Positions 13,236-34,273 of a DNA stretch of 64,000 nt are shown piece by piece. Location: positions 31,977 through 95,976 of the forward strand of contig CAMTMK010000005.1 in assembly GCA_947073645.1 (NCBI GenBank), in the 5' to 3' direction. The notes beneath the pieces were generated by a model. That model saw nothing but the letters and a program-made list of their open reading frames with translations, had not been told where the DNA came from and made no database searches. Position numbers and translations under genes: made by a program. The stretch is from an uncultured bacterium. GTDB taxonomy: Bacteria > Cyanobacteriota > Vampirovibrionia > Gastranaerophilales > Gastranaerophilaceae. The stretch's first letter is position 1. Each line of letters begins with the position of its first letter.

Positions 13236-13507
13236 TGAATGAGTTTGATAATATAGACTGGTTAGCTGAAAATATTAAAAATATTAAAGCAGCAATATCA
13301 AAAGCTATTGTAAGTGGTGGTGTAGTACAATATTCGTTAAATTCGGGTCAAGGGTCAACTTCTGTCCGACGTGCTACATTAGCCGAATTGACACAACAGC
13401 TTCGAGAAATGCAATATCTTTATAATGAAGCGATAGAGAATTGTACAGGTTCAAATATTAATGTAATGAGGACATATAATAATGCAAATAGATTTTTCAG
13501 CCGTTAA
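13235..13507 (+). CDS. head-tail joining protein (gpW-like)
   Basis: Position between GpA and portal; sequence VQYSLNSGQGSTSVRRATLAELTQQLREMQYLYNEA. Confidence 0.7.
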   Translation: MNEFDNIDWLAENIKNIKAAISKAIVSGGVVQYSLNSGQGSTSVRRATLAELTQQLREMQYLYNEAIENCTGSNINVMRTYNNANRFFSR

Positions 13508-15065: not shown

Positions 15066-15417
15066 AGAAAGTTTACAAGTGAAAGATTTACCAGATGCGG
15101 AAAAACAGGCTATTTTTGAAAGTTTTAAACAGCTACATTTAAGTGGCAGTCCTTTAAAAATGGAAGTTAATGCAGCTAAAGAGCTAATTGCTAAAAAACA
15201 ACAGGAAAATATTGAAGCAAAAGGTGAAACTGTAATTGTTAATAATCCCGTCGAAATTTTAACAACCCAAGAAACACAAGAAGCACAAGAAAATGTACAA
15301 ACTACTGAAGGTGTTATTGAACAAACTGCTAAAGAATCGGACGGTAAATGTATAATTTGCCATAGTCCAGTGTATGACGGTATTTGTTCTGGTTGTAAAA
15401 CTAGATTTAGGGGGTAG
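15058..15417 (+). CDS. hypothetical protein with C-terminal CxxC zinc knuckle
   Basis: ends CIICHSPVYDGICSGCKTRFRG; start likely 15058. Confidence 0.6.
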   Translation: MSEESLQVKDLPDAEKQAIFESFKQLHLSGSPLKMEVNAAKELIAKKQQENIEAKGETVIVNNPVEILTTQETQEAQENVQTTEGVIEQTAKESDGKCIICHSPVYDGICSGCKTRFRG

Positions 15418-15419
15418 AA

Positions 15420-16475: not shown

Positions 16476-16831
16476 TGGAAGCGATTATAAGAGGGACTTT
16501 TATTGAAAAAACAGTGACAGTTGAAGCTTCGACTGTTTTAAAAGAAGATACTGTTTTAGGTGAAGTTACGGCTACACAAAATTTACGAGCGTATAAGTCT
16601 GATGCAAATGATGGAAGCGAAGAACCTTGTTATATTTTGCCTTGTGAATTAAAGAATGATGACGCTGATTCTGCAAAAGAATTTAAAAATGTTAGAGTTT
16701 TAGCATATGGTGATGTAGATGCTGGTAAATTAAAACTTGCAAAAAGCGATGATGCTGTTGCTGCAATTACAACAAAGCTTAAAAATAATGGGATTTTAGC
16801 ATTAAATATACAAGATGGAATAGGAGTGTAA
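16475..16831 (+). CDS. head decoration protein (gpD-like)
   Basis: 118 aa, sequence and synteny between protease and capsid. Confidence 0.85.
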   Translation: MEAIIRGTFIEKTVTVEASTVLKEDTVLGEVTATQNLRAYKSDANDGSEEPCYILPCELKNDDADSAKEFKNVRVLAYGDVDAGKLKLAKSDDAVAAITTKLKNNGILALNIQDGIGV

Positions 16832-16834
16832 TAT

Positions 16835-17893
16835 ATGGTAGTAGAATTGAATAAATATTTTGCAGGCGGGTTTGAAAAACGTAAAAAACCTGCTCAATTT
16901 TTTACAAATTTGTGTAGAAAAGAATTTGCTTTAGAAGGTACAGTAAAATTTGATAAAAGGGATGTTTTTCCTCTTGTATCTGTAAATATTCAAAGTGGTA
17001 CAGGTGGACGTTGGCATAACCTTGATAAGTATAATGCAGAAGAGTATACAATTCCCGAATACAATGACGGTTCGACTCTTGGTGAAAATTTTTATAAAAA
17101 ACGTGCTTTTGGACAGCACGAATATGCACGTAAAGCTGTAAAGGCTGTTGATATTATCGCACGTAATCAAGGAATCTTGTCTGAATGGCAGCGTAATGCA
17201 CAAGAAAAACAAGTTGTAGATGCTTTGTTGACTGGTAAAATAAAACTAGTAAATGGTGATGAAATCGATTTTAAGAAAAAAGCTTCACATTCATTAACGT
17301 CTTCAAAAAAATTCTCTGAAACTGGTGCTAAACCTTTATCGGAAGTAGAAAAAGCTATTCAGGTAATTCTTGATGATGGTAAACCTGCTACAAGCGACTT
17401 TCATTATATTATGAATTCATCTGATATTAATGATTTTATAAGTAATGATGAAGTGCAAAAGGCTGCTAAAAAGCTTGATGGTATTGATAGAGTTGCAATT
17501 GGAATGCCTGAAGAAAAAGCTTTTGGTGCAAGTTTAATGGGTAAATTTGCTACAGGTGGTACGAATGTCTATCTTTGGGGTGTAAATACTAAGTATCAAG
17601 TCCCTATGGGATTTGGGTTTGCAGGGGAAGGTACACAGCAATTCTTTTTGCCAAAGGGTAAATCAATTGTTATTCCAACTAATCCGCAGTTTGTAATGTA
17701 TTATGGTGGATTAATGCCTTGTGCGCCAGATCAAGATCCTCTTTATATGCAGCCTTTAGAAGAAGAACAAATCGCATATCAATATGTTGTATGTGAAAAA
17801 GGCTGCTCAAGCATTGAATACGGTGTTAAAATGGCTCCTCTGTTTGTTCCTGAAAATGGCGATGATTACGCATCTATTGAAGGAATTTCTTAA
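16835..17893 (+). CDS. major capsid protein (lambda gpE family)
   Basis: 352 aa, synteny and gpE-like pattern. Confidence 0.92.
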   Translation: MVVELNKYFAGGFEKRKKPAQFFTNLCRKEFALEGTVKFDKRDVFPLVSVNIQSGTGGRWHNLDKYNAEEYTIPEYNDGSTLGENFYKKRAFGQHEYARKAVKAVDIIARNQGILSEWQRNAQEKQVVDALLTGKIKLVNGDEIDFKKKASHSLTSSKKFSETGAKPLSEVEKAIQVILDDGKPATSDFHYIMNSSDINDFISNDEVQKAAKKLDGIDRVAIGMPEEKAFGASLMGKFATGGTNVYLWGVNTKYQVPMGFGFAGEGTQQFFLPKGKSIVIPTNPQFVMYYGGLMPCAPDQDPLYMQPLEEEQIAYQYVVCEKGCSSIEYGVKMAPLFVPENGDDYASIEGIS

Positions 17894-17895
17894 AA

Positions 17896-18351
17896 ATGGA
17901 TGGCTTTGAAATGTTAGAATTTGATAAACAGACCATTATTGATGATGGTCTGTTTTCAACAAAATGTATTTTGTATAATCCTGACGGCAGGATTCAGGGT
18001 AAAGGCGCTACACTATCTTTAAATGATGCTAATTTTAACCCTCAAGATAGTTTATATTGCTTTTCGCCTTTTATTGGTCTTGATATAAGTACTGATACAG
18101 GGCTTGGTATTTTTGCAGATAGAGCAGAGATTACCTTAAATATGTCAAGTGTTAAAATCGGCATTGTTGAAAAGGGATGGATAATTGAAGTTTATTTTCC
18201 TTCTATTAGAAAGTGGCAAAAGTTCAAATGTGAATTTGTCGCAATAGACAGAATGATGGGAATTTATCTTATTAAGCCATCTCTAGTTGAAGAGAAAGTT
18301 GGCAACGTAAATAATTTAAGAGTTGGGGGATTAGGTGAATTCAATATTTGA
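17896..18351 (+). CDS. head-tail connector region protein
   Basis: position after capsid. Confidence 0.55.
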   Translation: MDGFEMLEFDKQTIIDDGLFSTKCILYNPDGRIQGKGATLSLNDANFNPQDSLYCFSPFIGLDISTDTGLGIFADRAEITLNMSSVKIGIVEKGWIIEVYFPSIRKWQKFKCEFVAIDRMMGIYLIKPSLVEEKVGNVNNLRVGGLGEFNI

Positions 18352-18988
18352 TAACTTAATTACTCCTGATATAAGGACATTTGCAGTTGATTTGCTGGCT
18401 GAAATACTTGTTTGTGAGCTTGAAAATCAAATTAAGATTGCAAAAACTGCAGGTAAAAATGAAGCTTGGATAGATAAAAATATTTATTTTAATGTTAAAA
18501 ATCACGAATTTCGCAGTGCGGATATTTCAGAAATGCCTTGTGTTTATATTTGGTTTGACAGAACTGATTATGAAAAAAAACAAACTATGACAAAATTGCC
18601 ATCTGTTAATCAACTTGTTATTGAGTTGTTTGCATGTGGGCAGAATAAATTAGATGATAGCGGTAATATTATATTAAGTGCGGATGCATCAGCTGATTAT
18701 AGACTTGAATATCTTCAGGCGCAAGTTAAACAGATTCTTATGAGTGAGGAAGCTGAAAATCTCAGATGTCGTGCAGGGTTGTCTTCAACGATTATAAAAT
18801 CTGTTGAACGTACATATTATCCAGAAAAGGATAATATTGCTGACAGTGTTATGTCAAGTAAGATTATTTTTGAAATCGAATTTGATGAAAAAACAAAATA
18901 TCTTTCTGGCAGAGAGATAAAAGAATTGTATATAACAAATAATATCAGAGATGAGTTTGTTTCATTTTTGATAAAAGAATTGAATTAA
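18335..18988 (+). CDS. tail completion/terminator-like protein
   Basis: position directly before sheath. Confidence 0.55.
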   Translation: MNSIFDNLITPDIRTFAVDLLAEILVCELENQIKIAKTAGKNEAWIDKNIYFNVKNHEFRSADISEMPCVYIWFDRTDYEKKQTMTKLPSVNQLVIELFACGQNKLDDSGNIILSADASADYRLEYLQAQVKQILMSEEAENLRCRAGLSSTIIKSVERTYYPEKDNIADSVMSSKIIFEIEFDEKTKYLSGREIKELYITNNIRDEFVSFLIKELN

Positions 18989-18999
18989 AAGGAGGATAA

Positions 19000-20856
19000 A
19001 TGGTCGTTAAATCGATTAAGACTGATGCAAGAGCATCAGCTACAGGTGTGTCTTTTTATCAAAGGGCACAGCAAGAAGGTGCATATCTTCGACCTGAAAA
19101 AATATTGTTTATTGGAAATTATCAAACAGGAAAAAATATTGAAAAAAATGTTATTTATTCAGGTTCTGGGAATTCTGATGATGTAGGAACTATGATGGGG
19201 TTTGGTTCACCATTGCATAGAATGGCATTAAAAGCTTTTCCTTTGGATGGTAGCGGAGCAAATGTTGAAACATATTTCTTGCCTCTACCTGAAGCTTCAA
19301 GTGGTGTAAAACATAAGGTAAATATGTCTGTAGCGGGAACGGCTATATTAAATGCAACTTTATATTTAAGATATAAAGAGCAAGTTTTTGAAGCAGCAGC
19401 AGATTTGGCTTCTAAAGTAGCTACGATTGCACATAATAACCCTGCTCTGGATCCAAAGGGAACTAAATTAAATTCATTTAATTATGAGAAAATTCCTTTT
19501 ACATTAAAAAAGGGGGCAAAAGGTAGGGAAATTCTTGATACAATAAAAGAAACTCTTGATGAATATGTGGAAATCCCTTTTACTGTATCGGTAACGGATA
19601 CAGCTTCTGCAAAAGCTGCAAAACTTATTTCTTCAGCAGCTGTTGATTGTACAACATTATCGGCAGAAGATTATGTAGTTGCATATTCTGTTGACGGAGG
19701 TGAACGTAAAGAAATTAAAATTGGAGCTTTACCTGCAGAAACTGCTGATGATATTGTAAGTGTATTGGCTGCAAAATTAACTGATATTACTGTTTCTGCT
19801 ACGAATTCAAATGATGCAGTATCTAGATATATCTTAACATCTGCTGCAACTGGTACGGCTTCAAAAATTCAAATTTTAGAACCTTCTGAGGGTACAGATT
19901 TATTTGCTGTATTAAACTTATCGGGCATCGCAGTGGGCAGTGGAGTTCCTGCCTTAGTTTTTGAATCAAAAGTCAAAGGTGAAACTGCAAAGTTTGAAAT
20001 TGATATTGTTGATTCTGAATATAAAGCTGTATATCTTGATGATTATGGTGTTGAGTTTTTGACTTCAATTGAAGAAGAGGGCACTGGATTTGTTAAGATA
20101 GATGATTATCTTGAAGATATAGGACAGGAATTAGGTATTACAAGAGTTTGCTCTCAATTTAGTGATGATAATGCGCTTGATGCAATGAAAGAATACTTTA
20201 CAGGGTGGCGTGAACCTAAATTGGCTCAATATGTTGTTTGTTATACAGCTAAAGAATTCCCTGAAAATAAACTTAACAAAGGTACAGTAGATATTGATGC
20301 ACTTATTGCTTTTGGTAATAAACGTAGTGATGATAGTGTAAATATACAAATTTTTGGAGATTATGGCAAGTTAAGAAGTTTAAGTTGGGATTTGCGTGAT
20401 AAACTTTTAAAGGCTGGTATTCCAAATCTTGAACCATTGTCAGGCGGTGGTTACGAAATTGGTGATTTATGTACTTTTTTCCATAAAAAAAGTAATAAAA
20501 AAACACTTTATAACTATGACAGAGATATTTGTTGTATGGGTAATGTTGGTTATTATCTTTTGGCTTGTTTTAAAGAGGCTGGCTGGCAATCTGCAATTAT
20601 TGTTTCTAATGAAGATAAAACGACAAATCCGAGAGTAAAACGACCAATTGATTATGTAGATAAGCTTAATAGTTGTATAAGAGCATTAGGTGAAGCGGGT
20701 ATTCTTGCAAATGTTGAAAAATCGGTTGGATTTACTATTGCAGAAATCGATAATACAAATCCAGACAGAATTAATGCAAATACTGCCCCTGATTTATCGG
20801 GAGTCAGTAGGATTGTTGATATTAGTAATGCACTCGGGTTTAATTATGGAGGTTAA
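19000..20856 (+). CDS. contractile tail sheath protein (Mu gpL-like)
   Basis: 618 aa; C-terminal KRPIDYVDKLNSCIRALGEAGILANVEKSVGFTIAEIDNTNPDRINANTAPDLSGVSRIVDISNALGFNYGG. Confidence 0.92.
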   Translation: MVVKSIKTDARASATGVSFYQRAQQEGAYLRPEKILFIGNYQTGKNIEKNVIYSGSGNSDDVGTMMGFGSPLHRMALKAFPLDGSGANVETYFLPLPEASSGVKHKVNMSVAGTAILNATLYLRYKEQVFEAAADLASKVATIAHNNPALDPKGTKLNSFNYEKIPFTLKKGAKGREILDTIKETLDEYVEIPFTVSVTDTASAKAAKLISSAAVDCTTLSAEDYVVAYSVDGGERKEIKIGALPAETADDIVSVLAAKLTDITVSATNSNDAVSRYILTSAATGTASKIQILEPSEGTDLFAVLNLSGIAVGSGVPALVFESKVKGETAKFEIDIVDSEYKAVYLDDYGVEFLTSIEEEGTGFVKIDDYLEDIGQELGITRVCSQFSDDNALDAMKEYFTGWREPKLAQYVVCYTAKEFPENKLNKGTVDIDALIAFGNKRSDDSVNIQIFGDYGKLRSLSWDLRDKLLKAGIPNLEPLSGGGYEIGDLCTFFHKKSNKKTLYNYDRDICCMGNVGYYLLACFKEAGWQSAIIVSNEDKTTNPRVKRPIDYVDKLNSCIRALGEAGILANVEKSVGFTIAEIDNTNPDRINANTAPDLSGVSRIVDISNALGFNYGG

Positions 20857-20860
20857 ATAA

Positions 20861-21226
20861 ATGGCAGGATATTTGAAATCATTAACTATAGATGGACATA
20901 AGTTTGCTGTGCCTAGTGATTGTGAGGCAAAATTTCATATTGGCGGAGAACAAAATACTGGAAGTGTTACTTTTGGTGATGGTACTTCTCGTGCTACAAA
21001 GGGGATGGTTGCAGGCAAGATGGAAGGATTACAAGTGGATGGAGATATTGATATTTTAAAAAGTCTGCTAGGACGTGAAAATCTCCCAGTTAGAGCTGAA
21101 ACAGATGACCGTTCATACACTTGTGACGGTATGATTGTTGTAGAATCTTTAAATATTTCTGGTAAAACTCGTATTACTGAACCGTTTGATATTATTTCAA
21201 ATTCAGGTGGTTTAAAATGTGGTTAA
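20861..21226 (+). CDS. tail tube protein (Mu gpM-like)
   Basis: 121 aa after sheath; tube-like sequence. Confidence 0.9.
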   Translation: MAGYLKSLTIDGHKFAVPSDCEAKFHIGGEQNTGSVTFGDGTSRATKGMVAGKMEGLQVDGDIDILKSLLGRENLPVRAETDDRSYTCDGMIVVESLNISGKTRITEPFDIISNSGGLKCG

Positions 21227-21234
21227 GATAATTT

Positions 21235-21266
21235 AAGGAAGCGGTTTTATTTATGGCCGCTTCCTT
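21235..21266 (+). terminator. hairpin / attenuator between tube and chaperone genes
   Basis: AAGGAAGCGG-N12-CCGCTTCCTT perfect 10-bp stem; no T tract. Confidence 0.5.
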
Positions 21267-21302
21267 ATAACAAATTTTAAAATTAAGAGAGGAAGAATTT
21301 TT

Positions 21303-21722
21303 ATGAAACTTGAACAAATAATGGACAGAGATGAAGCTCAAAGATATATTGAAGAAATGGCTGATAGTCTTGAAATAAATATGATGGATTTTGGTGTTAG
21401 AAAAAAAACAGATGATGAAATGAAATCTGAAGGTTTATTTTTGGAAGCTGTAATGGCAGGATTGGTGTTTTATGATAATGAAAAAGCCTGCCTTGCTCAG
21501 AAATTAACTAAAGAAATTTCTGCAGGTGATTTTACTCGAGAGTATTTGCATTATAAAACAAAATTTAAAGTTAAGGATGCAAGAAAATTAAAAACAGGTG
21601 GACTTGAAGCTTCTATGGACATGATTGCTCAAGTTTGTGATGTGCCTAAGGCGATTATAAATGAAATGCATGGATTGAATTTAGAAATTGCAATGAGTAC
21701 ACTGGATTTTTTCTTGAAATAA
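21303..21722 (+). CDS. tail assembly chaperone (short form)
   Basis: position between tube and tape measure; ends near slippery heptamer. Confidence 0.8.
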   Translation: MKLEQIMDRDEAQRYIEEMADSLEINMMDFGVRKKTDDEMKSEGLFLEAVMAGLVFYDNEKACLAQKLTKEISAGDFTREYLHYKTKFKVKDARKLKTGGLEASMDMIAQVCDVPKAIINEMHGLNLEIAMSTLDFFLK

Positions 21723-21880
21723 TTCTGCCTGATGTCTGGCTTATGGCAGATTATCTGTGGATAGAAAAATATGACACTTATACTGGTGTTGGTGAAATGA
21801 CAGCACAGGAAGTTATTGATAATGCTCCTGTAGCTTATAAATGTGATAAAAAGAAAAATACAATACCGAAAGGATACTAA
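21303..21880 (+). CDS. tail assembly chaperone, -1 frameshift extended form (192 aa)
   Basis: T_TTT_TTC in register at 21707-21713; -1 frame open LEIILPDVWLMADYLWIEKYDTYTGVGEMTAQEVIDNAPVAYKCDKKKNTIPKGY* to 21880. Confidence 0.8.
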
Positions 21881-23700
21881 TGGCATTTTCAGTATTTACT
21901 AAATTTAAAGCAATAGATGGTGTTACACCTGCATTTCAGAGCATGATTGTTAAAGGTAATAGTTTTCAGGCACAGGCTGGGAGAATTCAAAATGCTTTTA
22001 GTAGAGCCTTTCGTGGAGTCGGTAATAGTTTTACTAATTTGAAAAATGGAATTAGTTCTGTTGTAGATAAGATTTTTACTGTTAAAAATGCAATTATGGC
22101 AGTTGTTGCAGGGCAAGTAATTACGAGAGTAGCTGCACTAGGAAAAGCTTTTGTTGATATGGCATCAGATTTAGTCGAAACCGAGGGGAAAGTTGAAGTT
22201 GTTTTTGGGTCTATGACTTCAAATGTATACAAATGGGCTGACTCTTCAATTAAAAGTATGGGGCTTGCTAGGCAAACTGCTCTTGATAGTGCTGCTCTTT
22301 TTGGTGATATGGGTACTGGTATGGGTTTATCTCAACAGCGAGCAGCTGAGATGGCTATGACATTGACCCAGTTAGGGGCGGATTTAGCTTCTTTTAAGAA
22401 TATTTCAGGTGATGGTGCGACTACTGCATTAAAAGCAATTTATACTGGAGAAACAGAATCTTTGAAAAAACTTGGCGTTGTCATGACACAAGCAAATTTG
22501 GAAGAATTTGCTCGTAGTGTCGGGTTGCGAAAAAAAATAAAAGATATGAAAGAAGCTGAGAAGGTTGAGTTACGTTATCTTTATGTAATGGATAGAACAA
22601 AAAATGCTCAAGGGGACTTTTTGCGTACTGGTGGCAATGCTGCAAACCAAATGAGAATGCATTCTGAAATGTTGAAGGAGATCCAAACGAACTGGGGGAT
22701 GATTATACTGCCAGAATACACTAAAGCTTTGACTTATGCTAATAAGCTTTTAGTAGATAATATGCCTGTAATTCAAAAAGCATTTGAAGATTTTTACAAT
22801 GTTCTTAAACGCTGTTTTAATGCAATTAGTAATATTTATCATTTATTGAAATCATTTTTTGATTTTATAGTTAAATATTCTGATAGTGTAATTGCAGCTT
22901 TAAGTGGAATTGCTACAGTTGCGTTAATAGCAAATTTTAATAATTTGACTTGGGCTGTTTTAGGGCTAGGGGTAAAACTTGGAAGTTTGGCAGCTTCAGT
23001 TTGGGCGAATGTGACTGCATTTGCATCTTTTACTGTAGCATTATTATCTAATCCAGTGACTTGGATTGTTGTTGGTATTGGTGCTTTAGTTGCAGGACTT
23101 GTACTCTTAGCCTTGAATTGGGATAAGGTAAAAGCAGCTGCGCTTGAGTTTGTTCAAAAAGCTAAAGGATGGATTGTTGATTTATGGCAAAAAATAGAGC
23201 CAATTTTTAATAAAATAAAAGAAGCTGTACAACTTGCTTTTAAATTTAGTGCTGTAGGTGCTGTTGTTAATATAACACGTAATATTAATGATAAACATAA
23301 AAATAATAAAGATGAAAAGATTCCTGGCTTTGCTAAAGGAACAGAATATTTTAAAGGTGGTCTTGCACTTGTTGGCGAACAGGGGCCAGAGCTTGTTCAA
23401 TTCCCTATTGGTACAAAGATATATAATAACAATAAAACAGTCAGCATGATTGAAAGAATGTCTCAGCCAAAATTTGATAAAGTTCTTGATTTAGAAAAAT
23501 ATAGAAAAATCAGAGATGAACGACAAACCGTTATTAAAGAAACCATTATAAAAGAAGATCAGACTGCTAAAGATGATAATATTATTTATCTTGAAGTTGA
23601 TTTAAAACTTCCTGAAGGCTGTGAGGCTAAGGTAGTTAATGCAAAATCTTCATCAGGTAAAGATTTTAAAGTTAAGTTAAAAGGAAAAACAAAACAGTGA
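21880..23700 (+). CDS. tail tape measure protein
   Basis: 606 aa with hydrophobic segments, C-terminal FAKGTEYFKGGLALVGEQGPELVQFPIGTKIYNN motif typical of tape measures. Confidence 0.95.
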   Translation: MAFSVFTKFKAIDGVTPAFQSMIVKGNSFQAQAGRIQNAFSRAFRGVGNSFTNLKNGISSVVDKIFTVKNAIMAVVAGQVITRVAALGKAFVDMASDLVETEGKVEVVFGSMTSNVYKWADSSIKSMGLARQTALDSAALFGDMGTGMGLSQQRAAEMAMTLTQLGADLASFKNISGDGATTALKAIYTGETESLKKLGVVMTQANLEEFARSVGLRKKIKDMKEAEKVELRYLYVMDRTKNAQGDFLRTGGNAANQMRMHSEMLKEIQTNWGMIILPEYTKALTYANKLLVDNMPVIQKAFEDFYNVLKRCFNAISNIYHLLKSFFDFIVKYSDSVIAALSGIATVALIANFNNLTWAVLGLGVKLGSLAASVWANVTAFASFTVALLSNPVTWIVVGIGALVAGLVLLALNWDKVKAAALEFVQKAKGWIVDLWQKIEPIFNKIKEAVQLAFKFSAVGAVVNITRNINDKHKNNKDEKIPGFAKGTEYFKGGLALVGEQGPELVQFPIGTKIYNNNKTVSMIERMSQPKFDKVLDLEKYRKIRDERQTVIKETIIKEDQTAKDDNIIYLEVDLKLPEGCEAKVVNAKSSSGKDFKVKLKGKTKQ

Positions 23701-24977
23701 TGAATTATGCCAGCAGACAGAAGCAAATTATATGGACATCACCATCAGGGAAAATTTTTAAGCTTTTAACAGACGGGAAAATAAAATTTTCACGCAAGCG
23801 TAAAGGTGAGGTTAAAAATAATCCTACACGAAGTTATGGGAAAAATAACAGCAAAACGTCGTATAAAACAGTGAACATGTCTGATGATACTTTTCAAGAT
23901 ATGGGTGTGAGCGGGCGTGATTTTAGTTTGAAAATATATTTTCTCGGCGACAATCATGATATTGAAGCGGAAAATTTTGATGCTGCATATTGTGAACGTG
24001 GTCTTGGGAAATTGCAGTTACCTTATGGAAATATTATGACTGTTCAGGCGCTTGATATTGATTATGATATTGATACTGTTGAAAAGTCATCTATGACTGT
24101 TGTTAATATATCATTTCATGAATGTGGAAAGACGATTTATCCAACGGCACAATCATCTAATATGTCAGTTGCGAAAAAGAGTATTAATCAAGCGTTAGAA
24201 ACTGTTTCTCAAAATTTTGGTGATACCGTTGAAAAACTTGCAGATAAAGAAACTTTTGCAGCAAAGTGGAGTGCAAATTTAGATAAATTGATGGCTAAGT
24301 TTGAGGATATACAAAATTCGGATTTTATAGGGATTTTAAATGATATAAAATCACAAAATATATTACATAATCCTTACGTAATGTCTACCCAACTTGGTAT
24401 ATTGCTAAAAAAAGGTGTTTTGGCTTATTATTCAACTTATGATATGCTTGATAATATCGAAGATTTGTTGTTTTCTTTTTTACCATCTTCGAAGTATTCA
24501 TCTTCTTCAAGTTCATCTTTGAAGGCTGAATATACTGCTGATGATATATTTGCAAAGCAGACTATTGTAGCTGTAAGTGATGCTTTAATTGAAGCTGATT
24601 TTGAGTTGAGAAAAGATGCTGTAAGTGCAGTTGAAGATATACAGGATATAAATGATATTTATATAGAAAAATCACAGGAAATTGAACGGATTATTAATGA
24701 AAATATTGAAAATACGGTTATCAGTGAAGTTGATACAAATGAAATAATAAATAGTGTTATATCTTCTGTTATTAGTAAGATTGATGATTTGAAAATTGAA
24801 AAAACTATATATTTAAAAGATGTTTCAAATCCTTTAATGCTAGCTTTTCAATATTATCCAGATTTGTTCAAAAAGAATCCCGATAATGCTATTGCTTATT
24901 TAAACAAGACAAATGATTTTAGTGGTGATGATTTTTTGTATCTTGATAAAGGACGTAAGGTTGTAATCTATGTATAA
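23697..24977 (+). CDS. DNA circularization protein N-terminus family (Mu gpN/gp43-like)
   Basis: Mu-like tail synteny, sequence pattern. Confidence 0.8.
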   Translation: MMNYASRQKQIIWTSPSGKIFKLLTDGKIKFSRKRKGEVKNNPTRSYGKNNSKTSYKTVNMSDDTFQDMGVSGRDFSLKIYFLGDNHDIEAENFDAAYCERGLGKLQLPYGNIMTVQALDIDYDIDTVEKSSMTVVNISFHECGKTIYPTAQSSNMSVAKKSINQALETVSQNFGDTVEKLADKETFAAKWSANLDKLMAKFEDIQNSDFIGILNDIKSQNILHNPYVMSTQLGILLKKGVLAYYSTYDMLDNIEDLLFSFLPSSKYSSSSSSSLKAEYTADDIFAKQTIVAVSDALIEADFELRKDAVSAVEDIQDINDIYIEKSQEIERIINENIENTVISEVDTNEIINSVISSVISKIDDLKIEKTIYLKDVSNPLMLAFQYYPDLFKKNPDNAIAYLNKTNDFSGDDFLYLDKGRKVVIYV

Positions 24978-26106
24978 AAAAATATATAAAGGTAATATGG
25001 ATTATGATAATATCGCACGCAAACTGTATGGTAGTCCAGATAAAGCTGGTGATCTTGCTAAGATTAATAATAATACTGACGGATACATTATTGTGCCAGA
25101 TAGTGAAACACTTCAAGCAGAAGGTGATGGAGTTCGCTGTAATATTGATGGAGTTGTATATAACAGATTTTATAAATCTTTGCTTTTAAACTCTCTTGGT
25201 GCAATTAAGGGTGTTATATTTGAGTTTGACTCAAACCCAGAAGAGTTTTTGTTTAAACGAGGTCAAAAAGTTTCTGTTTATAATGATGATGATTTATTTT
25301 TAAATGGTTATATCTCAGATATTCAATCTGATGATACGCCGAATGGCTGTAAAACACTTTTATTTATCATGTCTTCTGCAGGGATTTTAATTGATACTGT
25401 TGTGCCAGAACCTTTAAATTTTTCTTATTTAAATATAAAATCAATAATTCAAACTATATGCGATTATTTTGGGTTAAATGTCGAATTTGAAAATAGTTCA
25501 AAACTAGAATATATTTCTCAAACTTCAATTGGGAATAGTTATAGTGCTATGGAAGATGAGAGTTGTTGGCAGTTTATAACAAGAATCGCAGGTTCACGCG
25601 GTTTAATAGTTGATGATGATGGAATAAAGTTGCATGTTGGTACTATTCAAGACAAAGATGTAAAGATATCTTTTCTTGAAGGTGAAACTATAGGCGTTAC
25701 TGGGTGGAAGTCTATATTTTCAACAGAAAATCTTGCTAGATATTATGTTGCTATGACTCAATATCCTGAACCTGATTGCGTAGTAGTTGAAACTCCTTAT
25801 AATTTGCCAATCACAAAGCGTATTTCTGATGATGATGCTTTTTCGGGAAGTTTAACAGATTTTGCAAATTGGAAGGCGTGCAGATATATAGGTGAAGCTT
25901 TTAAGATTGAGCTTGAAGTTAATGACTTTTTTAATCTTAAAAAAGGTGATTTTGTATATATAAAATCACCCTCCTGTTATATTTTTGAAGAAACAAAGAT
26001 GATAGTTGAAGATTTTGAACAGGATAGCCTTGAAGGTAATAAGATTACATTAACGTTACCTTGTGCATATACGGGTGTTATTCCAAAGGAGTTGCCATTA
26101 TGCTAA
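24970..26106 (+). CDS. baseplate hub protein (Mu gpP/gp44-like)
   Basis: synteny and late-control-D-like pattern. Confidence 0.85.
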   Translation: MYKKIYKGNMDYDNIARKLYGSPDKAGDLAKINNNTDGYIIVPDSETLQAEGDGVRCNIDGVVYNRFYKSLLLNSLGAIKGVIFEFDSNPEEFLFKRGQKVSVYNDDDLFLNGYISDIQSDDTPNGCKTLLFIMSSAGILIDTVVPEPLNFSYLNIKSIIQTICDYFGLNVEFENSSKLEYISQTSIGNSYSAMEDESCWQFITRIAGSRGLIVDDDGIKLHVGTIQDKDVKISFLEGETIGVTGWKSIFSTENLARYYVAMTQYPEPDCVVVETPYNLPITKRISDDDAFSGSLTDFANWKACRYIGEAFKIELEVNDFFNLKKGDFVYIKSPSCYIFEETKMIVEDFEQDSLEGNKITLTLPCAYTGVIPKELPLC

Positions 26107-26561
26107 AATTTGCAAAAATAATTGACGAGTCTGTTTTAGGGTTTATTCGAAAGTTTAAAGTTAAGCTGTATGGTTTAAATGATACATATATGGAACAATT
26201 TGGAAGTGGTGGCGAAGATTATACACCACCTTCTGATGCAAGGGCTTTAGCTGCAGCAATCGGAAATAACCCACGTGATGGGGTAGTTTTTTTGTACCAG
26301 GATAAAATTGAGAAAAAATCTCTAGCAGGAGAAAAACGTATTTATTCAACTGATGCAACGGGTTCGAAAATTGTCGCTGAAATTTATTTAAAAAATAATG
26401 GAAAGCTTTTGATTTCTACTAAAGGTGATATTGATATAATTTCGGACGGTCAAATTAATTTTGGAAAAGAAGGGAAGCCTATAGCACGTATTGGTGATAC
26501 TGTTGAAGTTGACGGTAAAATTGGTAAAATTACATCAGGGGGAATAAATACAAGTGTCTGA
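26100..26561 (+). CDS. baseplate spike/assembly protein (Mu gp45/gpV-like)
   Basis: ATG at 26100; GDTVEVDGKIGKITSGGINTSV spike-like C-terminus. Confidence 0.8.
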   Translation: MLKFAKIIDESVLGFIRKFKVKLYGLNDTYMEQFGSGGEDYTPPSDARALAAAIGNNPRDGVVFLYQDKIEKKSLAGEKRIYSTDATGSKIVAEIYLKNNGKLLISTKGDIDIISDGQINFGKEGKPIARIGDTVEVDGKIGKITSGGINTSV

Positions 26562-26982
26562 TTTTTTGATGATTGAAAATGGTGATGGTGGCGAAATTGA
26601 AGTTTCGAGTATTGGAGATATTGTTCTTGATGGGACACTTTATTCTTCAATATATTTAACTCTCTTTGGTGGAGAGTCTTTTTATAGGCAGTTTGATATT
26701 GAGGCAATAGATAATGAAAGTATTGAGCTCGAATTAAATAAACCTTCAACTTCTAATAATATGAAAAATCTTGCAAATATGATTAATTTTAAGCTAAACT
26801 GGCTTGTTAATTTAGGGTTAGCACAGAGTGTTAATACCGAAGTTTTTACAGAAGGTGAAGTGTTGTTGAAGATTAATATCACAATCAGTCAACCTGATGG
26901 GAATTCTGAGAGATATGGGATTATTTGGGATAAAGAAAAGTCTGAATTGAAACATTTTGGAGAAATTTATGGCAGGGTTTAA
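26554..26982 (+). CDS. baseplate protein (Mu gp46-like)
   Basis: 142 aa, synteny. Confidence 0.8.
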   Translation: MSDFLMIENGDGGEIEVSSIGDIVLDGTLYSSIYLTLFGGESFYRQFDIEAIDNESIELELNKPSTSNNMKNLANMINFKLNWLVNLGLAQSVNTEVFTEGEVLLKINITISQPDGNSERYGIIWDKEKSELKHFGEIYGRV

Positions 26983-28189
26983 GAAAAAAACTATAAAAGA
27001 GATACAAGCTGATATTATTAATGAATATTCTGTACGATTAAGAAAAGAAACAAATAAAGATACACCTTTGCTGCCTATTGCTGTAATGCGTTCACTTGCG
27101 TGGGCAGTTGCAGGTATTGCTTATCTGATGGGTGATTATTTGACTTGGGTTTATATGCAAATTCTTCCACAATATTGTGGTTTACCGATTTTAAAATTAT
27201 GGGGATCTTTATTAGGACTTGAATATAAAACAGGTACAAGTACTGTATTGCAAATTGAAATAAAAAATACAAAAGCGTTGATTTCAGCAGGTACTTTATG
27301 GAAAAGTTTAAAAAATGGAGTTGTATATAAATCCTTGGCTTCCGTTAATCCTATTGAGGGAATTGCTATTGTGTCTGTTCAGGCTTTAACTTCAGGAACT
27401 GTGGGAAATTTAACACCTGGCGAAATTTTAGATATTACAAATCCTTTTGATGGTGTACCTGATAAAGCAATTGTTAAATCTGTTCTTGTAATTGGTAGTA
27501 ATGATGAGGATGTAGAAGATTATAGAAAAAGAGTTTTAATTCGTTTTAGGCAAAAACCTCAAGGTGGTAGTTTTGTAGATTATTTTCTTTGGGCTACAGA
27601 AGTTTTAGGGATTGTTGATGCTCTACCCTATGTTTTGAATTCAGGTACTAATGTTATATATCTTGTTGCAGAGGGAAGTGGGAAAAATAGGACACCGAGC
27701 GGAAATGTTACTCCAAATCCTTTTCCAGAATGGGAAAATGGTAATATGAAAGAAATATCGGGTTCGGGTCAATTTTATCAGGTTGCAAAGTCTATTAATG
27801 GTACTGATGATATGAAAAATTCAAGACGTCCTGCGGGTGTAGTTGTTGAATTGCGTAAATGTAATTATACACCTTATAGGGTTGTGATTAGTGAGTTGAC
27901 ACCTTGTACAAATGATATGATTATAAGAATTAAAAACGCAATTATATCTTATTTGGATGTAAAAAGACCTCATATATTAGCACTTGGATATTCACAACAA
28001 AATGCAAAAATTAATTCTGGTAAGATTAGCGCAGCTGTGCAAAATACAATTGATTTTGATGGTGCAACATTTAGTTCCTTTGCTTTAAAAAACAGTGAAA
28101 ACAAAATTATTAATGAAGATATTCTTGGTATAGGTTGCTTGGCTTTTCTTGAAAAATTAACTATTAATGGGTCAGATGTGGTATTATGA
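26969..28189 (+). CDS. baseplate J protein (Mu gp47-like)
   Basis: 410-aa track ORF, GDYLTWVYMQILPQYCG..., synteny. Confidence 0.92.
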   Translation: MAGFKKKTIKEIQADIINEYSVRLRKETNKDTPLLPIAVMRSLAWAVAGIAYLMGDYLTWVYMQILPQYCGLPILKLWGSLLGLEYKTGTSTVLQIEIKNTKALISAGTLWKSLKNGVVYKSLASVNPIEGIAIVSVQALTSGTVGNLTPGEILDITNPFDGVPDKAIVKSVLVIGSNDEDVEDYRKRVLIRFRQKPQGGSFVDYFLWATEVLGIVDALPYVLNSGTNVIYLVAEGSGKNRTPSGNVTPNPFPEWENGNMKEISGSGQFYQVAKSINGTDDMKNSRRPAGVVVELRKCNYTPYRVVISELTPCTNDMIIRIKNAIISYLDVKRPHILALGYSQQNAKINSGKISAAVQNTIDFDGATFSSFALKNSENKIINEDILGIGCLAFLEKLTINGSDVVL

Positions 28190-28842
28190 TATTTAAAACT
28201 TTTAAGATTTTATTAGGGAACGGACGTGCTTGGCGCTTAGTAAATCCAAATATAAGGGCAATTGTTTTTGCTTTAATTAAGCCGTTTAAAGATTTAAGAC
28301 TCGCTGGACGTCGTATTGTTTATGCTCCATTTCTTACGCAAAATCATTATGCATCGGAAGAAGAACAGCTTATTGATGTCGAAAATTACGAAAACTTGTT
28401 TGGTATTGAGCCTGTATCTAATATTTTAAAAGAACGTCAATATAATACAGAAGCTCAATGGGCTTTAAGGGGTGCACAGGGGTTTGGATATATTGAAAAA
28501 GTCTTGGAACGTGCTGGGATAAAGGTAAAAGTAATTGAAAATATTCCTATGAAAGATTTATCGCATATTGGGGCTTTTGAATATGGGTTTACTCAGTATG
28601 GGCAGAATGTCAATGATGTAAAAGTTCAATATGGAGCTTCAGGTTACAGACTTATTGCTAACGGTAATCTTTATTATGGTGATAAGTATAATGATCCTGC
28701 TGTAATTACTCGTTGGGATAAAGTTATTTTGGTTGAAGTTATTAATCCTATAACTTATGGACAGTATAAAACTTTTGTTGATTTACTGCTTCGAACTAAG
28801 CCAATGGAAATTGTTTGTTTGTGTAAGTTGATTTTATATTAG
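28186..28842 (+). CDS. tail protein (Mu gp48/YmfQ-like)
   Basis: synteny; YGASGYRLIANGNLYYGDKYNDP pattern. Confidence 0.8.
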   Translation: MIFKTFKILLGNGRAWRLVNPNIRAIVFALIKPFKDLRLAGRRIVYAPFLTQNHYASEEEQLIDVENYENLFGIEPVSNILKERQYNTEAQWALRGAQGFGYIEKVLERAGIKVKVIENIPMKDLSHIGAFEYGFTQYGQNVNDVKVQYGASGYRLIANGNLYYGDKYNDPAVITRWDKVILVEVINPITYGQYKTFVDLLLRTKPMEIVCLCKLILY

Positions 28843-28851
28843 TGAGGGAAA

Positions 28852-29703
28852 ATGAAAAATTTATACGATTATGAAAATACTCAGTCAGCTAATACTGATT
28901 TGCCTTTTGGTGCTTTTAAAAATGAAAGTTCCCCAGGACAAAAAGATGGTACAGATATTATTGCAGAACATATTCAAGATATAGCATATCCGTTGTATCA
29001 AGTTTTACAACTTGCAGGTATAGTGCCAAACGGTGAGTTGGAAGATGGAAACAATAAAAAACAGTTTATACAAGCTTTAACAAATATAGGAATTTTAAAA
29101 CATGCAGAAGGTGTTTCATACGAAGCTTCGATTCTTGTATGGCGTATTGTAGGTACAGAATTTGCTTTGTATCGTTCTAATTTTTCAGAAAACAATGCAG
29201 ACCTGAGTGATGAAGAATCTTGGACTAAGATACTCACAATTGATAATAAAAACAAAATAAACTTTCATGTAGAAACAAATATTTCAGGAAGTTTATCACT
29301 TCCCACTTTCTGTTTTAACTCGGGTGCAGTCGACAGTGACGGCAATTCTGCATTAATGACTGTTGAAAACGATATTTTGACCTTAAACGCTCCTGCTGTC
29401 GGTACAACAGCAGACGGAGAAACTTTTACGGTTTCTGAAAATATTACATTAGATATTAGTAATTTGGCAGACGGCAGTTATAATTGTTTCTACAACCCTG
29501 AAACTAACGGGCTTGAGATTTATAACAACGAAATTTTTGAACAAAAAGCAGAACCCGAAAATTGGAGCATAAACGATATTTGGGTCAACACGAGCATTAT
29601 GCCGAACGTTTCCTACAAAAAAGTATCGGATACTGAAAAAGTTGTCACTAAACTTGTTCAAACCGCTGATGTAGAGCGGGTTTCAAATGGGGGGGGGGGG
29701 TAA
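28852..29703 (+). CDS. tail fibre protein ending in a 12-G tract
   Basis: MKNLYDYENTQSANTDLPFGAFKNES... fibre N-terminus; C-terminus VERVSNGGGG stop. Confidence 0.8.
   Translation: MKNLYDYENTQSANTDLPFGAFKNESSPGQKDGTDIIAEHIQDIAYPLYQVLQLAGIVPNGELEDGNNKKQFIQALTNIGILKHAEGVSYEASILVWRIVGTEFALYRSNFSENNADLSDEESWTKILTIDNKNKINFHVETNISGSLSLPTFCFNSGAVDSDGNSALMTVENDILTLNAPAVGTTADGETFTVSENITLDISNLADGSYNCFYNPETNGLEIYNNEIFEQKAEPENWSINDIWVNTSIMPNVSYKKVSDTEKVVTKLVQTADVERVSNGGGG
29689..29700 (+). repeat. homopolymeric G12 tract (candidate phase-variation tract)
   Basis: caaatGGGGGGGGGGGGtaac read directly. Confidence 0.95.
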
Positions 29704-29705
29704 CT

Positions 29706-30152
29706 TTGAGCAATAAAGAATACAACCTTGCAAAACTACTCAAACGTATAAAAAAACTTGAAAACAATATTGACGGAGAATGGACGATTAGCAATATGAC
29801 TTTGTTAGCCTACACTTCAAATAATTTACCGCAAGATTTTGACGTTACGTATGATTTGAGTAATTATCTGCCTGATGACGGCAATATTTACGAATGTATT
29901 ATTAATGGTTATATTGAAACATTAGCATCAAATAGAATTTGTTCAATTTCTGTCGGTAAAGTTATAAACGGTGAAAGTTGTGGAGCAGGTGGAATGTTTT
30001 TAAAGTGTGGCGGAACAGTTTCTATTAGTTATGCTCATGGAACCATGCCCGTACTGGTTTTTGCAAATCGGAAATTAACAATTTTTCAGGCTGGTGCTGT
30101 CAGTACGGGAGCAGGCGGATTTAGTCTTTTAAGATACAGAAAGGTAAGGTAA
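29706..30152 (+). CDS. fibre tip/adhesin-like domain ORF (TTG start or frameshift-fused)
   Basis: 148-aa ORF starting TTG six bases past the G tract; would be fused to the upstream fibre at G13 or G10. Confidence 0.65.
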   Translation: MSNKEYNLAKLLKRIKKLENNIDGEWTISNMTLLAYTSNNLPQDFDVTYDLSNYLPDDGNIYECIINGYIETLASNRICSISVGKVINGESCGAGGMFLKCGGTVSISYAHGTMPVLVFANRKLTIFQAGAVSTGAGGFSLLRYRKVR

Positions 30153-30154
30153 AA

Positions 30155-30541
30155 GTGTTTTATATTCATGTAAGAAATGGAAATTTAATAGGTTGCGGGC
30201 AATTTAAAGCGGTTGATGAAGATATTTTGAATATTTCGATATCTGAGGAGCTTTATAATGATTTTTGTAAAATTCCCGAAAAATATATTTGCAACGATAG
30301 TGGAATATTTCTTAATCCTGAATATGAGCCTGCGGATAAAGAAAAGCAATTAAGAATTGTAAATATAAAACAAGAGCTTGTTGAACTTGATACAAAGCGC
30401 ATTCGTGCAATGTGTGAGCCGTCTTTGCGTGAAGACGGGCAAGATTGGTTGTGTTTTTATAATCAACAAGCGCAATGTTTGCGCACACAGTTGCAGGAGT
30501 TAGAAGAAAGGACGGGAAATGACTACAACATTAACAAATAG
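30155..30541 (+). CDS. tail fibre accessory/assembly-like protein (copy 1)
   Basis: C-terminal coiled region similar to the ORF at 31619-31972. Confidence 0.55.
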   Translation: MFYIHVRNGNLIGCGQFKAVDEDILNISISEELYNDFCKIPEKYICNDSGIFLNPEYEPADKEKQLRIVNIKQELVELDTKRIRAMCEPSLREDGQDWLCFYNQQAQCLRTQLQELEERTGNDYNINK

Positions 30542-31619
30542 ACCGTATAATAATTACACAAATAAATGTTCAGTTACAGGCGGTTACGATTTGGGTCAAT
30601 TGTATTTTTCCGACCATATATTAGAAGGCGACGAGGCTGTTGGCAAAGCTTTACTTGGTACTTATGTCTACAAGGACGGTATAGCAGGCATTCGTAATGG
30701 CTATCCTGAATTTTATGATAAGTATTTGGCATTAATGAAAGCTAGTGAAGCACAACAAGTAACACTTGGTGATAATACAATAACAATGTATATTAATGCA
30801 AACGGACTTCAATTTTATAATATTGCGGATAAAGAAGTTATTGACGCTTGGTATAATAAATATGGTAAAGCTTATTTCTTTGGCGTTGATGAAGAAAACG
30901 AAAGAATTTTCTTGCCGAGAGGTGAGCAATATTTAGTAATGGGTAAGAATAATACTGTACCTGTAAAGGTTTTTGGTACTGGTAAAACTCTAGGTCTTAC
31001 TAACGGTACTAATAATGTTGCATTGTCAGGTATTTCTGTTGACGGTCCACCTTGTACTTTAACTACTACTGGATTCAATGTTAATGTTGCAAATACTCCT
31101 ACTTCTCCTAGTGGTCGTAATTCTAAGGGTTATTATGGTGTAGTTACTAATCCATCTACTTCGGGCATACGGGGTACTGTTGATTTATCAAATATAGGTC
31201 AAAAGGCATATCTTTACATGGTTGTCGGCAATACAAAAGAAGTAACACATATTAGGACTACTATTCCCGAAGGTGAAGCTTTAGAACAGATTTATAAAAA
31301 TAAAGATGATATTACCATACTAAACGATAATAAAGTTGATTTAACCAATACGCAATGGGCAATAAATTCTTGTGCACTCGATTACAAAAATGCGATATCG
31401 CTTATGCTTACAACAACACCATATACAGCCCCTATAGATGGAGTTATTTTTGTAGCGGATAATAATACTTCAACCAAAAATCAGTTGATTATTGATGGTG
31501 TTTCTTTAGGTGCTGTTAAGTTGTATTTGAGTATTGCTATGCGTGTATCAAAAGGGAGTACGATAGCAACAGTTGCTGATATTCACGCTCAATTTATACC
31601 ATTGAAAGGAGCTGTATAA
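30519..31619 (+). CDS. second tail fibre/collar protein
   Basis: 366 aa; FDEENERIFLPRGEQ-like fibre motif (VDEENERIFLPRGEQYLVMG). Confidence 0.75.
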   Translation: MTTTLTNRPYNNYTNKCSVTGGYDLGQLYFSDHILEGDEAVGKALLGTYVYKDGIAGIRNGYPEFYDKYLALMKASEAQQVTLGDNTITMYINANGLQFYNIADKEVIDAWYNKYGKAYFFGVDEENERIFLPRGEQYLVMGKNNTVPVKVFGTGKTLGLTNGTNNVALSGISVDGPPCTLTTTGFNVNVANTPTSPSGRNSKGYYGVVTNPSTSGIRGTVDLSNIGQKAYLYMVVGNTKEVTHIRTTIPEGEALEQIYKNKDDITILNDNKVDLTNTQWAINSCALDYKNAISLMLTTTPYTAPIDGVIFVADNNTSTKNQLIIDGVSLGAVKLYLSIAMRVSKGSTIATVADIHAQFIPLKGAV

Positions 31620-31972
31620 TGACATATTACACAATTCAAAGTGATAAAATTTTAATGGCAGAAACAGAACAAGCATTAAGTAATTTTTATAATAATATCA
31701 AAATTTTGCCAGATGATTATGTAGAGGGCAAATATATTCTTGATAACAACATGCTTGTTCTTAATCCTGACTTTGAAGCGGAACAGGTGAATAGAGAACG
31801 CGAAATTCGAGTTTTAGAAATTAAATCACAATTGGTTGATTTGGATGCACAAGCAATCCGTCCGTTACGTGCAGTTTTAACAGATTGCGGAACTGACGAA
31901 GATAGAGAGATTTTAAAAGATATAGAAATGCAGGCTAATAATTTGCGCGCGGAATTAAGCAGTTTCCTGTAG
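31619..31972 (+). CDS. tail fibre accessory/assembly-like protein (copy 2)
   Basis: REIRVLEIKSQLVDLDAQAIRPLRA... parallels KQLRIVNIKQELVELDTKRIRAMCE in copy 1. Confidence 0.55.
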   Translation: MTYYTIQSDKILMAETEQALSNFYNNIKILPDDYVEGKYILDNNMLVLNPDFEAEQVNREREIRVLEIKSQLVDLDAQAIRPLRAVLTDCGTDEDREILKDIEMQANNLRAELSSFL

Positions 31973-32317
31973 ATTTTTATTAACAGCTTCTTCAATTAAA
32001 GCGTTAATGCTAACGCCTTTCATTTTTGCGGTTTTAGCAAGTCGGTAATGGGTTAAACCTGTAGTTCTGTAAGTTATATTTCCCTTAAAATCAGATAATT
32101 TAAGCGGTTCAGGGATTTCCATATTATTTGCAAGACTTGTATTAATATATGCTTCAAGTGCTTTTTTTAAATTTGTAATAACTTCTTCAGGAGAATCACC
32201 GCAAGTCATATTTTTTTCAAGTTCAACTATACTGCCGAGATAACAGCCGTCAGCGTCGCTCCATTCAACAATGTAGCTGTAAGGTAAATTCAAGTAGTAT
32301 TCAAGATTTTTTTTCAT
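31955..32317 (-). CDS. hicB: HicB-family antitoxin
   Basis: YSYIVEWSDADGCYLGSIVELEKNMTCGDSPEEVITNLKKALEAYI plus C-terminal RHH-like segment. Confidence 0.9.
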   Translation of the reverse strand: MKKNLEYYLNLPYSYIVEWSDADGCYLGSIVELEKNMTCGDSPEEVITNLKKALEAYINTSLANNMEIPEPLKLSDFKGNITYRTTGLTHYRLAKTAKMKGVSINALIEEAVNKNLQETA

Positions 32318-32318
32318 A

Positions 32319-32561
32319 TCAATACCCCTCATATTGTAGTACTGCTTGTAATTTTGCAACCATATACGGTTTTAAAGGATTTTGAGTAAGAACGATAGTG
32401 ACTGACGGAGCGTTAGGTTTTCTATAGGTTAAATGTGAGCTTCCGCCTGCCGGTCCTTGAGCAATGTATCCGAACATTTCAAGAATTTTTCTTGCTTCTG
32501 CCGGAGTTATTTCAGATTTGCCTTTAAGGATTTTTTGAATAAGTTTGTCTGTTTTACTCAT
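32319..32561 (-). CDS. hicA: HicA-family mRNA interferase toxin
   Basis: ARKILEMFGYIAQGPAGGSSHLTYRKPNAPSVTIVLTQNPLKPYMVAKL; conserved GSSH. Confidence 0.9.
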   Translation of the reverse strand: MSKTDKLIQKILKGKSEITPAEARKILEMFGYIAQGPAGGSSHLTYRKPNAPSVTIVLTQNPLKPYMVAKLQAVLQYEGY

Positions 32562-32567
32562 ATTATT

Positions 32568-32589
32568 ATGATAGCATATATGCTATCAT
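32568..32589 (-). promoter_or_regulatory. 22-bp perfect palindrome, candidate HicAB operator
   Basis: ATGATAGCATATATGCTATCAT a few bases upstream of hicA. Confidence 0.75.
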
Positions 32590-32695
32590 TTGTCAAGTAT
32601 TAAAACTAAAAATATTACGAAACATGTCGAAAAACAACAGAAAGTTAGGAAATTATTACAAAATTTGTCAAAAATGACAAGAAAGCGAGGAAATT

Positions 32696-32941
32696 ATGGA
32701 TGAAAAAATGAGAACTGTACTTTTAGGATGGTGCGAAAGACATGCGACTATATTGTCACCTGTAGTAGTTGCTGCATTAAAAGATTTGGTTGAAACAGTT
32801 GTTAAAACAACAGATACCCCACTTGATGATGCTATTGTATTACCTTTGACGGGAACAGTATTTAAGTCTTTAGATAGCTGGTTGCTCGAACAGGCTGATA
32901 AAATCGACGGTGTAGAGGGAAACTGCGGAGCGCATGTGTAA
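32696..32941 (+). CDS. hypothetical phage protein
   Basis: ORF with GCGAGGAAAT upstream. Confidence 0.6.
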   Translation: MDEKMRTVLLGWCERHATILSPVVVAALKDLVETVVKTTDTPLDDAIVLPLTGTVFKSLDSWLLEQADKIDGVEGNCGAHV

Positions 32942-33186
32942 TGTTTGATTTCGCGGGAGTAATAAAATCGGTCGGAGAGGTTTTTTCAAGCCTCTTCGAT
33001 TATTTTAAAACAGTAAAGGAAAATCAATCTGAAACAGAGGTTATACAAGATAAACATGATATGGAAAAGGCATGCAGGTATGCAGAGAATGCTATATCTA
33101 TAGTTGAAAAAAGCGCATTTTTCTTTAAGAAAAAAGACAAATTTCGTTTTGGATATTTTGTGAAAAAGTTTAGAAAATTTAAGTAG
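32941..33186 (+). CDS. hypothetical phage protein
   Basis: ORF, lysis-region context. Confidence 0.55.
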   Translation: MFDFAGVIKSVGEVFSSLFDYFKTVKENQSETEVIQDKHDMEKACRYAENAISIVEKSAFFFKKKDKFRFGYFVKKFRKFK

Positions 33187-33492
33187 GTGAAAATGCAAGC
33201 AGGAAATGAATTGATAACTTTTTTGGTATCACTTTTGGGTGGTGGTGGAATTGGTGGAGCTGTTGGATTTAACTTTGTGAAAGCGTATATACGTAGTGAA
33301 GCACGTGAGGCAGTTTCTTTTGATGTGAAAAAACTTGAACATGAGGATGAGGCATTGCACAAGCGGATAAACCACGTAGAAAACGAGTATGTCCAGTGTA
33401 AACATTGTAATACGCAACATTCAGGATTAAATATGACGCTAGGCAGTATGGATCACAAACTGGATATTTTAATTGAAAAGAAAATGAGGTAG
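33187..33492 (+). CDS. small membrane protein, possible holin/spanin-like
   Basis: N-terminal TM ELITFLVSLLGGGGIGGAVGFNFV then coiled coil; directly before endolysin. Confidence 0.5.
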   Translation: MKMQAGNELITFLVSLLGGGGIGGAVGFNFVKAYIRSEAREAVSFDVKKLEHEDEALHKRINHVENEYVQCKHCNTQHSGLNMTLGSMDHKLDILIEKKMR

Positions 33493-33496
33493 TAAA

Positions 33497-34018
33497 ATGA
33501 AAATATTTTTGAATGCAGGTCATGGTGGAAGTGACCCTGGAGCAGTTTCAAAAAATGGATTAAAAGAAAAAGATGTTACGAAGAAAATTTGTGACATATT
33601 AGCAATGATACTGCATAAAAGGGGGCATTTTGTTATACAGTACCAGGAGCAAAGATCTTATTTGGAAATAACAAAAGAAGAAAATAAAAGTGGAGTTGAT
33701 TTATTTATATCTGTACACTGTAATAGTTTTAGTGTTGATTCTGCACATGGTGTAGAAACTTTGTATTATCCAACTTCTATAAAAGGCAAAAAACTTGCTG
33801 AAAGTGTTCAAAAAGAATTGTTGGTAAAAACAGGTCTTTTTAATCGTGGGTGTAAAATGCGCAGAGATTTGCATGTATTAAATGCAACAAAAGCTCCTGC
33901 TGTATTAGTTGAGTGTGCATTTATATCAAATCCGACAGAAGAAAAACTTTTAAAAAGTAATCCTGAACTTTTTGCTCAAGGGATTGCTGATGGTATAGAA
34001 AATTATGTAACAATTTAG
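33497..34018 (+). CDS. N-acetylmuramoyl-L-alanine amidase (Amidase_3) endolysin
   Basis: MKIFLNAGHGGSDPGAV...DLFISVHCNSF...HGVETLYYPTS...PAVLVECAFISNPTEEKLL. Confidence 0.95.
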   Translation: MKIFLNAGHGGSDPGAVSKNGLKEKDVTKKICDILAMILHKRGHFVIQYQEQRSYLEITKEENKSGVDLFISVHCNSFSVDSAHGVETLYYPTSIKGKKLAESVQKELLVKTGLFNRGCKMRRDLHVLNATKAPAVLVECAFISNPTEEKLLKSNPELFAQGIADGIENYVTI

Positions 34019-34031
34019 TTCTCTTATATTT

Positions 34032-34055
34032 CCCTGCATTTTGCAGGGTTTTTTT
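34032..34055 (+). terminator. rho-independent terminator after endolysin
   Basis: CCCTGCA-ttt-TGCAGGG followed by T tract. Confidence 0.9.
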
Positions 34056-34273
34056 ATTTTAGAAATATTTACAAATTGTTTTATTTATATTATAATTTTA
34101 TTTTTAATATTATTTTTTATTACAAAGTGTAGTTTGAAAAGTTAGAATGAGTGCTTTGTTTATTATATTAAGACTTAGGCAGCCAAAAATTCGATAATAC
34201 TGTTAAAAAGTATAATATTTTCGGGTTTTGTTAAAACTTCTTTTAGTTCGAAGTATGTCCTACAAGGCGCCCC

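Follow-up and report, generated by a model that had tools for sequence, protein, structure and literature searches.

The window analysed here is a 64-kb stretch of an AT-rich, 1.71-Mb genome from the family Gastranaerophilaceae, whose named relatives include Candidatus Gastranaerophilales and 'Fusobacterium sp. CAG:439', the latter belonging to the same genus as the window genome. Members of this gut lineage are non-photosynthetic relatives of cyanobacteria. The window carries the structural part of a myovirus prophage, in which the tail-fibre gene runs into a pure G tract and is followed by tip and chaperone-like ORFs:

13482..34018, + strand: structural part of the contractile-tailed myovirus prophage (portal, head protease, major head protein, sheath, tape measure, baseplate hub, baseplate J-like wedge, fibre, endolysin)
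28852..29703, + strand: tail-fibre ORF in its OFF reading, 283 aa, with VSNGGGG as its C-terminus
29293..29688, + strand: conserved hinge domain, mostly beta, its end directly abutting the tract
29689..29700, + strand: G12 tract, the proposed slipped-strand switch
29701..29703, + strand: TAA, the fibre stop in the G12 state
29706..30152, + strand: exchangeable tip (ORF2), 148 aa, TTG start, C-terminal end GGFSLLRYRKVR
30155..30541, + strand: small ORF 3' of the tip, fibre-chaperone-like by position
30519..31619, + strand: second, orphan tip cassette, a free-standing ORF of 366 aa
31619..31972, + strand: second chaperone-like ORF (phrog_300 tail fiber, E 0.014)

The N-terminal region of the fibre ORF is matched by phrog_26525 (tail fiber, E 1.1e-7). 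Searches of named phage records returned only weak N-terminal matches for the fibre, to Klebsiella and Vibrio phages, and no relative of the hinge. An AlphaFold model of the fibre ORF is confident only at the hinge (approximately residues 165-278), which is modelled as beta strands with the glycines coming straight after. A fold search with the hinge model gave nothing significant, the best hit being the Mu tail fibre (E 0.03, probability 0.28), and sequence searches against solved structures found no credible match. The tip model, made from a single sequence, was uninformative (pLDDT 38).

Two neighbouring features are recorded for completeness. In this phage (window 31955-32561) and in the phage at locus L035 (7562-8186), the fibre cassettes are separated from the lysis genes by two small minus-strand ORFs that resemble a HicA/HicB toxin-antitoxin pair. 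Just outside the prophage, the minus strand at 36842-41752 encodes a very long repetitive protein of 1636 aa; its numerous repeats are rich in Asn/Gly, and its C-terminal part resembles an autotransporter barrel.

The first-pass annotation had claimed that a G12 tract closes the fibre frame with the tip ORF one base out of register, and this is borne out at 29689-29700. With 12 Gs the fibre meets its stop immediately. The frame of ORF2 is already open from 29670, and a tract of 13 or 10 Gs joins fibre and tip into one protein of ~433 aa, reading ...VSNGGGGVTLSNKEYN...; 11 or 14 Gs lead to a stop a few residues on, after NFEQ in the case of G14. The tract had also been described as the sole long G homopolymer, which is correct for the window, where no other G run exceeds five, but not for the genome, which holds 64 tracts of at least nine. 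Matches to G9 in the window (four, overlapping) compare with a mean of 0.02 in dinucleotide shuffles, and, with GGG making up just 15% of the prophage's glycine codons, an uninterrupted run of G is unexpected. The tract satisfies the first criterion that we apply to a poly-G phase-variable gene, a pure homopolymer of at least about eight within a reading frame and beyond chance.

Hinge relatives and tract length

A profile of the hinge domain identifies relatives in 41 of 387 family genomes and also in IMG/VR contigs; an initial profile built from a two-row alignment had no match in the genome contigs, and the relatives were found with a richer alignment. A G run of at least eight sits at the hinge C-terminus in 16 of 50 prophage or phage loci that carry the hinge, across about ten genera. 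The tract is present in all nine hinge matches above 150 bits, and the 34 relatives that lack it are mostly distant ones. Over 261 kb drawn from 23 contexts there are 15 G/C runs of eight or more, every one at a hinge end, together with 82 runs of five, five of six, and one of seven.

Although the position of the tract is kept, its length is not. We find G8 at L101 and L109; G9 at L106, L115, and L162; G10 at L098, L104, and L108; G11 at L035, L099, L100, and L102; G12 in the window and at L125; G19 at L103; and G25 at L112. These lengths come from assemblies rather than reads, and individual values may be off by one; the G19 and G25 tracts, both close to a contig end, are possibly artefacts. 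The hinges of the window and L035 have diverged to a dS of 0.77 with a dN/dS of 0.11, and the tract is still pure G in both.

Flanking sequence is readable in 11 loci. In each of them a single phase leads into an open tip frame (144-483 aa) and the remaining two reach a stop within 4-9 codons, such that only some tract lengths give the full protein. Nine of these loci are OFF as assembled (the window at G12, L035 at G11, L125 at G12, L098 at G10, L099 at G11, L101 at G8, L102 at G11, L104 at G10, and L109 at G8), and two are ON (L106 at G9, a 561-aa ORF, and L108 at G10, an 808-aa ORF). Such a distribution, as assembled, fits a switch that flips at random and is open for one in every three lengths. 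Related genomes thus differ in tract length, and both ON and OFF examples occur among them. The first-pass annotation would have been refuted by a tract invariably of 12 in front of a conserved stop, with no fused homologues. That outcome is not seen: lengths range from 8 to 12 (plus 19 and 25), L106 and L108 are fused, and relatives of the tip are fused elsewhere.

Exchangeable tips and alternative explanations

The tips behind the tracts represent six or more unrelated families. L104, L109, and L125 have similar tips, and the window tip is similar to the final part of the one in L101. The tip of L035, an IMG/VR locus, is a relative of the window's free-standing cassette at 30519-31619 (48% identity) and is joined to its hinge through a G11 tract, so that the same tip is tract-joined in one phage and stands as its own gene in a second. 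Eight other tract loci also carry, 3' of their tips and often twice, homologues of the window's small chaperone-like ORF at 30155-30541. The N-termini of hinge-bearing fibres vary as well, with at least three types: that of the window (also in L118-L120), the Pfam tail-collar domain PF12571 (three members), and a coiled-coil-like form (L121). From these unrelated tips and varied N-termini we infer that the hinge plus tract acts as a transferable switch module.

In about 20 family loci, relatives of the window tip form the C-terminal domains of continuous fibre ORFs, mostly ending YRK or YRR, which indicates that proteins of this kind are ordinarily fused. ORF2 retains the conserved DGxW and YRKVR motifs, and purifying selection is evident where sequences can be compared (tip2 dN/dS 0.33, alongside the hinge value given above). 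Aligned tips (n=8) were too diverse for a profile scan, a scan of viral sequences with ORF2 alone found no relative, and the tip has no match among 50,697 named phage records. That the tip binds a receptor is our inference from its position, its modularity, and the chaperone-like genes that follow it; we have no binding data.

The most serious rival to a tip switched on and off is that ribosomes in the OFF state re-initiate past the tract, using the G stretch as a Shine-Dalgarno-like signal, and make the tip as a separate polypeptide, so that the locus would toggle between fused and split products. An ATG, GTG, or TTG does lie in the tip frame one to three codons past the tract in eight of 11 loci, often near the OFF stop codon (L125 and L109, for example), and the neighbouring cassette at 30519-31619 is itself a free-standing tip ORF. 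However, L035 and L098 have no start codon for 10 codons past the tract, and L104 has none for 60, from which we conclude that re-initiation is not the general rule. A free tip also has no known means of attachment, and the start codons are perhaps mere remnants of captured free-standing cassettes. We regard this explanation as unlikely, but for the window it remains a real competitor.

The first-pass annotation had raised programmed ribosomal frameshifting or RNA-polymerase slippage as a way to obtain both forms from one template. Long homopolymers can make ribosomes and polymerases slip, which is the general ground for considering it here. Tract length varies among relatives, however, and each length would need a different shift; nor is there unusual RNA structure 3' of the tract (fold z = +0.61). 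The locus does not meet the definition of a programmed frameshift site, a fixed slippery site with a stimulatory structure, and we give the proposal little credence, although some background slippage is not excluded.

Less credible again is an error of assembly or sequencing, whereby the gene would in truth always be fused or the tract would be a two-colour poly-G artefact. Short-read homopolymer lengths can indeed be off by one, and the two longest tracts lie near contig ends. Such an error does not explain why contigs produced by independent projects, among them CAG:439 scaffold FR900471.1 and two IMG/VR contigs, share an internal, in-frame tract at one and the same hinge. Judged on the sequences, the tract itself is real and its exact lengths are perhaps off. 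Decay of ORF2 into a pseudogene fragment after a frameshift, for which the out-of-frame assembly is the only support, can be set aside, given that the arrangement recurs with unrelated tips, some of them in frame, and that selection and both tip motifs are maintained. An inversion switch was also considered and is disfavoured, there being no long flanking inverted repeats in 26900-34200; in a search confined to repeats, the longest inverted pair in that interval is 27 nt at 74%, of a chance type, and no repeat of the diversity-generating-retroelement type is obvious.

Poly-G tracts in the host genome and family

The host genome contains 64 G tracts of 9-12, and 52 of these lie in the leaders of prepilin-like genes, 5-30 codons past the start (nearly all 5-16); examples are L036-L065 and L127-L158 (genome G000). 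A prepilin motif from the tract-bearing genes reads FTLAEVLITLGIIGVVAA, and in the four prepilin-like genes tested TIGR02532 or PF07963 (cleavage/methylation domain) matched at or near cut-off. Each of the 52 genes has a G9-12 or C9-12 tract with one open phase, and nine are ON as assembled. These genes apparently constitute a very large phase-variable pilin repertoire in a Gastranaerophilaceae genome. A text search of one open-access library turned up no description of phase variation through poly-G tracts for this lineage.

Several further observations concern the host tracts. Some twelve G/C tracts are in genes other than pilins (L048, L131, L139, L140, L141, L144, L146, and L147), some of which resemble surface-sugar enzymes; unlike the pilin tracts, roughly half of them, if not more, are ON. 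The leaders of the tract-bearing pilins L041, L046, L049, L062, and others have in common an insertion of similar sequence (AAGCGTAGCCGCTTGACCCGCCACATTGG...), which is possibly a short repeat element.

Across the family, G tracts of nine or more are found in 101 of 118 genomes, with a range of 0 to 151 per genome, suggesting from the assembled genomes that family members differ strongly in their use of poly-G tracts. Hosts of prophages with a fibre tract are richer in tracts than hosts of prophages without one (p = 2e-4, uncorrected for phylogeny). Campylobacter is known to lack MutSL. The present host encodes a full-length MutL and, unlike Campylobacter, is therefore not obviously repair-deficient; absent mismatch repair as the cause of the long tracts is unsupported, MutL being the only component examined.

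The proposed switch and known systems

We propose, with high confidence, that the G tract serves the prophage's tail-fibre gene as a phase-variation switch. The relatives strongly support the first-pass claim of a slipped-strand switch at the level of sequence: the tract, its fixed position, its variable length, its single open phase, the occurrence of both states, and the unrelated tips and N-termini can all be read from the assemblies. Length change within a population has not been demonstrated, and slippage as its source is inferred. During replication, Gs would be gained or lost from the tract by slipped-strand mispairing. One length in three (10 or 13 in the window) would join the fibre body and hinge to the tip in a protein of ~433 aa, and in the other two phases translation would end at or just past the polyglycine, leaving a tip-less fibre. 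The tips would then be exchangeable cassettes, and the hinge with its tract a reusable on/off socket. Small copying slips very probably toggle the exchangeable tip in this way, and toggling may change which cells the virus grips, an effect on host choice that we infer rather than observe.

A broader hypothesis, which we advance only tentatively and are inclined to doubt, is that the hinge and G-tract form a mobile unit spread through unrelated Gastranaerophilaceae phages, behind varied attachment domains and before interchangeable tip-chaperone cassettes. It would be matched to a host that varies its own surface likewise, with phage tips and pilus proteins varying randomly against each other. 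Since a G run can be counted, existing gut metagenome reads could reveal mixed tips in phage populations, and the same reads could show whether tip state tracks the phase-variable pilins of the host.

The locus resembles the invertible tail-fibre segments of Mu and P1 (Gin/Cin) in having alternative tips and chaperone-like genes adjoining the fibre gene. It differs from them in lacking long flanking inverted repeats (26900-34200) and in switching one tip on or off, rather than inverting between two. With the poly-G contingency loci of Campylobacter and Neisseria it shares an in-frame homopolymer that leaves only one of the three phases open, and lengths of about 9-12; unlike those loci, the gene is viral and the host has a full-length MutL.

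The closest precedent lies in Campylobacter phages. A 2025 review credits Sorensen et al. 2021 with demonstrating phage phase variation through simple-repeat switches in receptor-binding protein expression (PMC11868660), and the title of that paper (Cell Rep 35:109214) names Campylobacter phages and polyG tracts (PMC11868660, PMC10877375). Poly-G phase variation of phage receptor-binding proteins is therefore known in principle. Both cases involve a phage host-recognition gene turned on and off through a simple G repeat; the Campylobacter phages are lytic, whereas ours are prophages of Gastranaerophilaceae. Homology to the Campylobacter-phage receptor-binding proteins is not seen: the tip matches none of the named phage records, and the fibre gives only the weak N-terminal matches to Klebsiella and Vibrio phages. 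The present tract lies at a conserved internal hinge between the fibre body and a swappable tip, a position that we have not compared with that in the Campylobacter phages. What is new here is the host lineage, the prophage setting, the fixed hinge position with exchangeable tips, and the parallel in host pilin genes. Random on/off control of host recognition would thereby be extended from lytic phages of Campylobacter to prophages of an uncultured gut lineage, with an anatomy that is now defined: a conserved hinge, a G-tract, and a swappable tip.
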